The notes under the pieces are model-generated. The model saw nothing but the letters and a program-made list of their open reading frames with translations, did no database searches and was not told where the DNA came from. A DNA stretch of 64,000 nucleotides. Source: Fischerella sp. JS2 (GTDB lineage: Bacteria; Cyanobacteriota; Cyanobacteriia; Cyanobacteriales; Nostocaceae). Where the stretch lies: NCBI RefSeq assembly GCF_032393985.1, contig NZ_CP135918.1:2976001-3040000 (forward strand), written 5' to 3'. Made by a program: the position numbers and the translations under genes. This document shows positions 54,208 to 62,960 of the stretch, piece by piece (the first letter of the stretch is position 1; the number at the start of each line of letters is the position of its first letter).

Positions 54208-54236
54208 TTGACATTGAGTAGAGACTTGTTTTAATA
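54208..54236 (+). promoter_or_regulatory. Sigma70-type promoter for the Thr leader region
   Basis: TTGACA at 54208-54213, a 17-base spacer and TTAATA at 54231-54236, about 38 bases upstream of the first leader ORF. Transcription would start near 54243. Confidence 0.55.
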
Positions 54237-54273
54237 AAATAAAAGGAGCAATATTTAAACTTTTTGCATCATC

Positions 54274-54336
54274 ATGTCAGTAAACGTCTGCCTAACAACA
54301 ACTACCGCTACTACTACCAACTCAGGAGGGTTGTGA
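54274..54336 (+). CDS. Thr-rich leader peptide 1 (thrS attenuator)
   Basis: A 20-codon ORF (ATG 54274, TGA 54334-54336) encodes MSVNVCL-TTTTATTTN-SGGL with seven Thr codons (ACA, ACA, ACT, ACC, ACT, ACT, ACC). The stop codon comes directly after GGAGGGT (54325-54331). This segment is complementary over 7 bp to ACCCTCC (54376-54382), the left arm of the following terminator. A ribosome finishing the peptide would cover GGAGGGT and let the terminator form. A ribosome stalled early on Thr codons would leave it free to sequester ACCCTCC and allow read-through. No strong Shine-Dalgarno precedes the ATG. Confidence 0.75.
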   Translation: MSVNVCLTTTTATTTNSGGL

Positions 54337-54375
54337 GGCGATCGCGTTGACTTGAAATTCGATAGAACTCCATCT

Positions 54376-54404
54376 ACCCTCCAGGTAATACCCAGGAGGG
54401 TTTT
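54376..54404 (+). terminator. Attenuator terminator 1
   Basis: ACCCTCC (54376-54382) and GGAGGGT (54395-54401) pair over 7 bp with a 12-base loop that can pair further (GG/CC), followed by TTTTAAG. The right arm is identical in its CAGGAGGGTT context to the segment at the end of leader ORF 1, which is the competing partner. Confidence 0.7.
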
Positions 54405-54438
54405 AAGTTGTTATTGTAATCCAAATTAGGAAAAACAA

Positions 54439-54507
54439 ATGTTCATTTATCAATTTATTCACCTCACTACCACTACCACCACCACAATCGCGCCTGGAGG
54501 GATGTGA
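54439..54507 (+). CDS. Thr-rich leader peptide 2 (thrS attenuator)
   Basis: A 22-codon ORF (ATG 54439, TGA 54505-54507) encodes MFIYQFIHL, then seven consecutive Thr codons (ACT ACC ACT ACC ACC ACC ACA), then IAPGGM. AGGA lies seven bases upstream of the ATG. CCTGGAGGG (54493-54501), within the last codons, can pair over nine positions (one G-U) with CCCTCTAGG (54544-54552), the left arm of the next terminator. Same design as leader 1 but with different peptide context, so the conserved features are the Thr run, the terminal GG codons and the A:B:C pairing. Confidence 0.8.
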   Translation: MFIYQFIHLTTTTTTTIAPGGM

Positions 54508-54543
54508 GGAGAATTGCTGCTTGGCAAATTGAAACTCAAACGC

Positions 54544-54572
54544 CCCTCTAGGTCGAACCTAGAGGGTTTTTT
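54544..54572 (+). terminator. Attenuator terminator 2
   Basis: CCCTCTAGG (54544-54552) and CCTAGAGGG (54558-54566) form a perfect 9-bp stem with a 5-base loop (TCGAA), followed by six T. It is a strong intrinsic terminator 36 bases upstream of the thrS start. Confidence 0.85.
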
Positions 54573-54607
54573 ATTAGCAAAAAACATGATTTACAGGAGA
54601 TACAACC

Positions 54608-55830
54608 ATGTCTGATCATCGAGAACTAGCAAAAGCAATGAGATCTATTTCACTTTGAAGAACATAGTCCGGGGATGGTGTTTTGGCATCCAATCGGGTT
54701 AAAGTTATTGCGGCTGATTGAAGACTTTATGCGACAGATTTACCAAGATCATGGCTTTGAGGAAGTGCGATCGCCAGTAGCCTTGAATCGATCGCTTTGG
54801 GAACTTTCTGGACACTAGCAAAAGTTCCGTCAAAATATGTTTGTTGTGGGTAGTTCGAATGCAGAAGAAGAACCAGATTATGCATTGAAACCAATGTCAT
54901 GTCCCGCACACATCGCGATCTACAAATCCCACAAGCGGAGTTATCGAGAAATACCGATGCGATTGATGGAATTTGGTATGGCTCATCGCAACGAACCTTC
55001 GGGAACGCTATCTGGCTGTATGCGTTTGCGCTAGTTTGTCCAAGATGATGCCTATATCTTTTGCCCTGAAGCCGATATCAGAAGTGAGATTGGCAATTTT
55101 CTCAGGATGGTGAAACAGGTTTATGCAGTCTTTGGATATAATAACTTTTCCATTCGGATTGCTTTGCGACCAGAACAACGTCTTGGCTCAGATGAACAAT
55201 GGGATCGGGCTGAATTTGCCTTAATTGAAGCCGTTCAAGCGCTGGGTTACGCTTATGAATTAGCGCCAGGTGAAGGCTCTTTTTATAGTCCCAAGATTGA
55301 AATCAGTATGCAAGATCATCTAGGAAGATTGTGGCAATGTGGTACGATTCAAGTTGATTTGAACTTTCCTCAACTTTTTGATTTGTCCTTTATTAATCAA
55401 AAAGGAGATTTAGAGCAGGTAGTGGATATTGCACCAAGCAATTTTAGGTTCTTTAGAACGCTGGATTGGCATTTTGTTGGAAAATCACAATGGAGTTTTA
55501 CCACTGTGGGTTGCTCCTGTGCAAATAGCTGTGGCTTCAGTTTCTGAAAAATCTGCGAATTGGGCAGAAGTGATTTTTAGAAGGTTGAAACAGATCGGGG
55601 CAAGAGTAGAATTGCATGTGAGCGATCGCACGATTGCCAAAAAGATTCGAGAACTATCTGCGCGTAAGATTCCACTGATTGCAGTTGTTGGCGAAAAAGA
55701 AGTAATGAATCAATCTCTCAACTTGCGTCGTTTGGGAATTTCTGGACAGCAAGAGATTCAGCTTGCTGAGTTAGAAGTTGAATTTTGTTCGCTACACACT
55801 GAACCAAAATTCCAGCTATGCCAGCATTAG
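54608..55830 (+). pseudogene. thrS: Threonyl-tRNA synthetase gene, multiply broken
   Basis: Starts well: AGGAGA seven bases before ATG 54608 (MSDHRELAKAM). A frameshift near 54639 leads to DLFHFEEHSPGMVFWHP, the class II motif 1 region follows (FEEVRSPV), then TAG at 54816-54818 where Trp is expected (SGH-W-QKF), [27 protein letters not shown] (motif 2), TAG at 55032-55034, FVQDDAYIFC. After that FGYNNFSIRIALRPEQ and YGPK-like FYSPKIEI lead to a second frameshift near 55430. HQAILGSLERWIG (motif 3 region) and the anticodon-binding domain to 55830 complete it. With no TGS/editing domain it would be ~405 residues, a short ThrRS form. Two nonsense and two frameshift lesions make it non-functional. 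An intact ThrRS must be encoded elsewhere. Confidence 0.92.
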
Positions 55831-62710: not shown

Positions 62711-62739
62711 AAAAAAAACCCCGGTGAAACCAACCGAGG
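62711..62739 (-). terminator. Terminator of the Psb34-like gene
   Basis: On the minus strand CCTCGGT, a loop and ACCGGGG (one U-G pair) are followed by eight T (plus-strand A-run 62711-62718). It lies ~50 bases after the stop of the Psb34-like frame. Confidence 0.75.
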
Positions 62740-62789
62740 TCAAGCAGAGAAGAACGAATGACAATAAGAGATATCGTGAGAAAAAAATC

Positions 62790-62960
62790 TTAACTAACGC
62801 TAAAACCAACCAAAACTAAAGCAGTCACAATTAAAGAAGCGAAAACAGCTTGGATAAGGTATTTGCGTTGTTCCCAAATTGCTCTTTACTCGGCATAGTA
62901 CATCTTGGGTTCAGTTGCGTAGTTGTTGAGAACGCCGTCTTCATTCACAGTGGTGTACAT
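62790..62960 (-). pseudogene. Psb34/Ssl1498-like light-harvesting-like protein gene with an in-frame TAA
   Basis: From ATG 62960 the frame reads MYTTVNEDGVLNNYATEPKM, YYAE, then TAA at 62888-62886, then RAIWEQRKYLIQAVFASLIVTALVLVGFSVS and stop at 62790. LNNYATEPKMY and the single C-terminal hydrophobic helix fit the small Ssl1498-type (Psb34) protein that binds CP47 during PSII assembly. The stop removes the membrane helix. The promoter side and the terminator look undamaged, so the mutation may be recent. Confidence 0.6.

Follow-up and report, generated by a model that had tools for sequence, protein, structure and literature searches.

Two short open reading frames, each with seven Thr codons, lie between a probable promoter and a threonyl-tRNA synthetase gene (thrS) in the cyanobacterium Fischerella sp. 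JS2. The question that this locus raises is what such frames do upstream of thrS, and why there are two of them. The window analysed here is a stretch of 64,000 nucleotides, positions 2,976,001 to 3,040,000 of contig NZ_CP135918.1, forward strand. Very probably, the two frames belong to two ribosome-mediated (leader-peptide) transcription attenuators in series, which would sense charged tRNA-Thr and control the gene of an accessory ThrRS without an editing domain. The sequence basis of the attenuator reading is the anatomy of the region, its conservation, Thr codons that vary mostly at third positions, alternative pairings and association with a short form of thrS. The features are as follows, in window coordinates.

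54208..54235, plus strand: probable promoter, with TTGACA at 54208-54213, a 16 nt spacer and a weak −10 element TTTAAT at 54230-54235; from sequence and from TTGACA in 38 of 43 loci
54274..54336, plus strand: leader ORF 1, MSVNVCLTTTTATTTNSGGL, 20 aa with 7 Thr, ending in GGL-stop; Thr tract in 43 of 43 loci
54325..54331, plus strand: unit 1 segment A, GGAGGGT, putative 5' arm of the antiterminator, within the end of ORF 1
54376..54382, plus strand: unit 1 segment B, ACCCTCC, common to the predicted antiterminator and terminator
54395..54404, plus strand: predicted terminator 1, segment C (GGAGGGT, 54395-54401) with a T4 tail; B:C hairpin with T-run in 41 of 43 loci
54439..54507, plus strand: leader ORF 2, MFIYQFIHLTTTTTTTIAPGGM, 22 aa with 7 Thr, ending in IAPGGM-stop; Thr tract in 40 of 43 loci
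54489..54506, plus strand: small unit 2 hairpin enclosing A, candidate 1:2-type, CGCG (54489-54492) with TGTG (54503-54506), from RNAalifold
54493..54501, plus strand: unit 2 segment A, CCTGGAGGG
54544..54552, plus strand: unit 2 segment B, CCCTCTAGG
54558..54572, plus strand: predicted terminator 2, segment C (CCTAGAGGG, 54558-54566) with a T6 tail (54567-54572); hairpin with T-run in 39 of 43 loci
54595..54599, plus strand: thrS Shine-Dalgarno sequence AGGAG, from sequence, preceding the ATG at 54608
54608..55830, plus strand: short-form thrS, a pseudogene in the window with in-frame stops and a frame change; ATG at 54608

The region 54208-54607 consists of two consecutive units, each with a short ORF of seven Thr codons, the segments A, B and C and a T-run. 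A preliminary description of this DNA had placed the ORFs, the three segments and the T-runs at coordinates that prove exact on checking, and had pointed to the thrS ribosome binding site, which is the AGGAG listed above. Its central observation, two tandem Thr-codon leaders upstream of thrS, is borne out by their rarity: at least seven Thr in 12 codons occur at only two of the 2940 short ORF ends on both strands of the window, exactly the two leader ORFs, and at none in 15 dinucleotide shuffles of the window. An AGGA at 54428-54431 lies 7 nt upstream of the ATG of ORF 2, while ORF 1 has no clear Shine-Dalgarno sequence at normal spacing; the leader ORFs may be translated, given the coding signature described below and, for ORF 2, this AGGA. 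The T-run of unit 1 is the short TTTT at 54401-54404, followed by AAG. A terminator scan of the window finds the terminator of unit 2 (one found against 0.5 expected) and misses the weaker one of unit 1. The promoter, called sigma70-like in the preliminary description, is probable: TTGACA precedes unit 1 in 38 of the 43 loci compared below, but the −10 element is poor, so the pair TTGACA/TTTAAT is missed by a consensus scan, whose single called site lies elsewhere in the window, where 2.0 are expected by chance.

In the proposed mechanism, a ribosome would translate leader ORF 1 while RNA polymerase transcribes the region. With ample charged tRNA-Thr, the ribosome would reach the stop codon and cover A, B would pair with C and transcription would end. 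A ribosome stalled in the Thr run would leave A free to pair with B as it emerges, C would stay unpaired and the polymerase would continue to unit 2, where a second, equivalent decision would be made. Since thrS would be reached only by transcripts that pass both units, its output should be tight and steep. The ORFs have the Thr codons of an attenuator, a U-run terminator stands before the gene, the target charges the same amino acid, and the predicted folds give a mutually exclusive antiterminator and terminator with one shared arm. From this we infer ORF translation, stalling, termination and its relief, and the AND-gate logic of the pair.

The gene downstream has its own distinctive features. 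In the window it matches threonine--tRNA ligase in two TIGR00418 pieces, 54627-55415 with four stops (one TGA, three TAG) and 55414-55773 with one (TAG). Since the target of the window's leader copy is a pseudogene, this copy is probably a relic. Among 31 relatives the short form, of about 400 aa, is uninterrupted at 395-423 codons in 27, and the frame is shorter in the other four (L047, L051, L064 and L080). Fischerella muscicola PCC 7414 (L055) and Chlorogloeopsis fritschii PCC 6912 (L049) are among those with an intact frame and both units; TTGACA is present in the former and missing in the latter. Two short forms that were scanned contain the class II core and the anticodon-binding domain and lack the tRNA_SAD editing domain, which is present in the full-length ThrRS of the window's genome. 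In an alignment, one Cys and two His columns, presumably the zinc ligands, are retained in both forms. In a ThrRS tree, the 24 short forms included make up a single clade (100/100), which excludes all eight cyanobacterial full-length forms in the tree, among them that of the window's genome; the program warns of long branches between the groups. Of 32 genomes with a short thrS or its remains, 30 also encode an uninterrupted full-length ThrRS that matches the whole model; in the other two the full-length enzyme is a 622-aa frame matched in two pieces (G085) or is split over two frames (G377). Since a full-length ThrRS stands alongside in nearly all of them, the short form is regarded as accessory. 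It also seems dispensable, because it is visibly damaged in seven of the 32 (the window's genome, G001, with traces only, G006, G023, G031, G360 and G377), and the damage differs in kind: stops, a deletion, a split or mere traces.

Conservation of the two units was followed in loci collected by two routes. One route, a search of 198 relatives at the DNA level, yielded 21 loci (L006-L026) that have one Thr ORF or more together with the short gene or traces of it. A genome scan with the N-terminal 75 residues, of which the best 80 of 434 confirmed relatives were kept, gave 31 cyanobacterial short forms and 49 proteobacterial matches among those 80. One of the 31, L035, has just 67 bases upstream; both Thr ORFs, counted by a 5-Thr rule, are present in 27 of the other 30. 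The second ORF of L052 has only three Thr in its tract, and L040 and L061 show loss or decay of unit 2. With unit 1 retained and thrS open over 396 and 410 codons, these two loci are natural single-attenuator variants. The window, the 30 short-form loci, ten further genomes and two Acaryochloris plasmids make up a pool of 43 loci, which includes related rows, some of them near-duplicates (L036 and L037). In this pool the Thr tract of unit 1 with A is present in all 43 loci and its B:C hairpin with T-run in 41 (missing in L124 and L025); unit 2 is present in 40 (missing in L040, L061 and L025) and its terminator in 39, L010 being the unit 2 carrier that lacks it. The Thr frame is out of the usual frame of A in unit 1 of L009 and unit 2 of L051, and ORF 1 of L041 ends just before A. 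In L010 (2600-3200, genome G092) segments A and B of unit 2 are separated by an insertion of about 160-170 bases, which resembles a small transposable element in having inverted ends and a copy of GATAGTTGC at each edge.

The Thr tracts themselves are conserved at the amino acid level. In unit 2, codons −4 to −10 before A encode Thr in 79-93% of 29 rows, and the entropy of the tract is 1.1-1.9 bits at third positions against 0-0.9 at positions 1 and 2. Unit 1 (31 rows) is less even: codons −10, −9, −7, −6 and −4 are Thr in 81-100% and codon −3 in 71%, while codons −8 and −5 are Thr in just 42% and 39%. Leader Thr codons thus differ among relatives mostly at third positions. ACT and ACC together (ACY) account for 86% and 91% of the Thr codons in the two leaders; among Thr codons of 38 long window ORFs their share is 59%. 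Fisher values are descriptive only, since the rows are related. The excess of ACY suggests that the leaders may sense the tRNA-Thr that reads ACY.

Any ribosome halted upstream of A would shift the balance between A:B and B:C, and the leaders might for this reason respond to slow translation in general, caused by an antibiotic or any other stall, rather than to uncharged tRNA-Thr. This is improbable, since Thr is kept in both units of nearly all loci while its synonymous codons vary, and since the downstream gene makes Thr-tRNA. That the peptides are conserved might also mean that they are themselves functional, in trans, as Thr-rich products. Such a role is hardly to be expected: conservation is focused on Thr and on the GG end, whose codons are the pairing segment A.

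Predicted RNA folds agree with the alternation that attenuation would need. In the stalled state, with the RNA from A to B exposed, A:B is held in 30 of 31 unit 1 and 29 of 29 unit 2 sequences; in the completed state, with A covered, B:C is held in the same numbers, 30 of 31 and 29 of 29. The mutual exclusion of A:B and B:C claimed in the preliminary description is reproduced by prediction across relatives. The single miss is L050, in which the wrong B was picked and whose fold does show A:B. Mean z values of the stalled and completed folds are −2.7 and −2.8 for unit 1 and −4.1 and −3.2 for unit 2. In naked RNA before C is made, A:B is predicted in 31 of 31 unit 1 and 28 of 29 unit 2 sequences; since A:B forms first when no ribosome is present, an untranslated leader RNA should read through, a point against the attenuator reading. 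The complete naked RNA is divided between A:B (13 and 11 sequences of units 1 and 2) and B:C (18 and 18), so that, as modelled, the leader RNA is a bistable switch. A candidate hairpin that would protect A was found in unit 2 only.

Covariation was assessed for unit 2 in alignment A3, which holds 28 of the 29 rows (L037 omitted as a near copy), 27 of them distinct. B:C pairs in 91.8% of cells, against 65-71% after a one-column shift; one of 500 shuffles reaches the B:C covariation score. Changes on both sides occur at two of nine pairs, in six cells, with CG to UA at one pair in five rows; the counts are unremarkable both for changed pairs (reached by 355 of 500 shuffles) and for pair types (306 of 500). 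A:B pairs in 90.9% of cells, its core is nearly invariant and its covariation is not above that of shuffles, 280 of 500 of which reach the score. In the hairpin around A, 94.4% of cells are paired, one of four pairs changes on both sides, in three rows, and 46 of 500 shuffles reach the score; by its predicted fold this hairpin may correspond to the 1:2 hairpin in classical attenuators. In alignment A4 of unit 1 (30 of 31 rows, L037 omitted), RNAalifold returns A:B, with no both-sided changes. A further candidate, covariation of an extension of A in unit 1 between the stop codon (TGA or TAA) and TCAC or TTAC in the A-B interval, was suggestive only and was dropped as proof. In that table, which contains related rows, includes L047 and L009, for which unit 2 was picked, and omits two TAG rows, TCAC occurs in 12 of 24 TGA rows against one of 17 TAA rows, and TTRC is unspecific (13 of 24 and 16 of 17). 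The preliminary description had proposed looking in relatives for conserved Thr runs and for compensatory changes. The runs are conserved, in 43 of 43 loci for unit 1 and 40 of 43 for unit 2; compensatory changes are seen to some extent in B:C, but none beyond shuffles in A:B. Conservation is strong and covariation modest, and it is mainly the conserved layout as a whole, less the covariation, that carries the case.

The leader keeps close company with the short gene. Two covariance models, R1 for unit 2 and R2 for unit 1, match 12 of 388 class-level genomes each, the identical 12, the window's included, and in all 12 the leader precedes a short thrS or its remains; neither model places a leader before another gene at E 0.001 in this class sample. 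In an order-level sample of 388 genomes R2 matches 13; 12 of these matches precede a short thrS or its remains, G001 has gene traces only, and no leader before other genes was found. The two samples overlap, and scans of this size use stricter filters, which may lose weak matches. Among the 49 proteobacterial matches the frame is open for at least 243 residues upstream of the match in 48 and for 185 in L095, consistent with full-length ThrRS. Since the 900 bases searched lie mostly inside the proteobacterial genes, whole loci were searched with both models: the 57 full-length thrS loci (49 proteobacterial and eight cyanobacterial) contain no leader at E 0.01. The best match there is antisense, in the full-length locus of the window's genome (L001), with 14.2 bits and E 0.86, and a positive control, L049, was recovered in the same search.

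This association bears on a plainer view of the two terminators, as constitutive insulators or as one decayed regulatory leader, with incidental Thr ORFs. The weakness of terminator 1 in the window, the thrS pseudogene there and the losses elsewhere would fit such a view, but it is very improbable, given that Thr frames, A, B and C are retained together in diverged relatives and found only with short thrS in the genomes searched. R1 and R2 each cross-match the other unit. The pair of units may have arisen by an old duplication, even though shared motifs alone could cause the cross-matches.

The short gene and its leaders appear to travel together. The grouping within the short clade crosses families, with Moorena placed with Leptolyngbya and the Acaryochloris plasmids, and Mastigocoleus apart from Fischerella; a comparison of 18 loci by eye shows mostly different flanking frames, except that Fischerella and Chlorogloeopsis have theirs in common; and two Acaryochloris marina plasmids typed as conjugative, pREC2 and pREC1, each carry a short thrS with both leaders. 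Together, the cross-family grouping, the mostly different flanks and the two conjugative-plasmid copies suggest that promoter, leaders and gene have spread horizontally as a single cassette. On pREC1, cysS adjoins the short thrS, and no Cys leader was found in the 400 bases upstream of this cysS. A broader proposal, put forward tentatively and with some doubt, is that the locus is a mobile cassette for Thr starvation, complete in itself. Its spare ThrRS, free of editing and moving horizontally, would have a promoter of its own and be governed by a double attenuator acting as an AND gate on the charging of ACY-reading tRNA-Thr; the gene would be turned on once the housekeeping enzyme fails, for example under a natural ThrRS inhibitor. 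If this is true, selection for serial Thr sensing on thrS would have been convergent, working through ribosomes in cyanobacteria and through T-boxes in Bacillota.

Tandem T-boxes on Bacillota thrS, described in a section of PMC12452182, suggest a different reading of the present locus, in which the leader binds tRNA directly as a T-box or responds to a metabolite as a riboswitch. This is extremely unlikely. Neither in the window nor in four relatives does the leader match an Rfam family at gathering score; the best leader-type match is His_leader, at 17.1 bits against a threshold of 49, and the four relatives give only a tRNA, located elsewhere. A survey, as excerpted from PMC2494555, lists T-boxes in none of 13 cyanobacterial genomes, and the conserved core of the leader is a coding Thr run. 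Elsewhere in the window, Rfam matches the photosynthesis regulatory RNA PsrR1 on the minus strand at 62714-62792 (57.2 bits).

The mechanism is a classical one; what is new is the phylum, the target gene and the conserved serial pair. Korolev et al. 2016, in a passage of PMC4833913, state that there are no reliable data on attenuation in cyanobacteria. Among the literature matches listed, in a scope with subscription journals mostly outside it, there is neither a published report of the thrS leader element nor a study of an accessory editing-less ThrRS. A conserved cyanobacterial attenuator would imply transcription-translation coupling tight enough for ribosome position to steer termination, and the leader offers a direct genetic test of such coupling. 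The tandem build, paralleled by the tandem T-boxes of Bacillota thrS, raises the question of why Thr charging has two gates, and the finding points to an accessory ThrRS without editing, plasmid-borne in places.

Leader-peptide control is familiar from enterobacteria, where thrL, a Thr-rich ORF with alternative antiterminator and terminator hairpins, controls thrABC, and where pheST has an attenuator with the pheM leader peptide. The cyanobacterial leaders share the Thr-rich ORF and the alternative hairpins with thrL, but thrL is a single proteobacterial unit with mixed Thr and Ile codons that serves biosynthesis through thrABC. With pheST/pheM they share leader-peptide attenuation of a synthetase gene, but there the amino acid is Phe, the unit single and the synthetase a housekeeping one. 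An auxiliary trpS of Streptomyces has reportedly been described by Vecchione and Sello; the trpS and leuS genes of Streptomyces are similar in having a predicted classical attenuator before a synthetase gene, one of them auxiliary, and differ in amino acid, in being single units and in belonging to Actinobacteria. The preliminary description was right to name pheST as a known synthetase attenuator, which a passage of PMC1262725 mentions, but its list was short: the same source has attenuators predicted before trpS and leuS in Streptomyces, and a part of PMC2965389 gives a His leader before the hisS paralogue hisS* and hisZ in bacilli. The leader of hisS* likewise sits on a synthetase paralogue, but it is a single unit, specific for His, in Firmicutes.

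In cyanobacteria, a parallel is thrS2 of Anabaena, which encodes an inducible second ThrRS (T2) under Zur control according to a portion of PMC4787780. The short form resembles it as a second ThrRS in a cyanobacterium. Anabaena thrS2, however, is full-length and zinc-controlled at its promoter, and the short form matches neither its lineage nor its domain layout, having no tRNA_SAD domain in the two scanned and a separate clade of its own (100/100). In serial arrangement, the counterpart is found in Bacillota, where thrS and thrZ carry tandem T-boxes (sections of PMC12452182 and PMC2494555), thrS being the sole Bacillota synthetase gene said to bear them in the former. Both systems place serial Thr-specific antitermination before a ThrRS gene; the T-boxes bind tRNA directly through RNA, with no leader ORF or ribosome, whereas the cyanobacterial pair would read the same signal through a ribosome at each of its two Thr runs.
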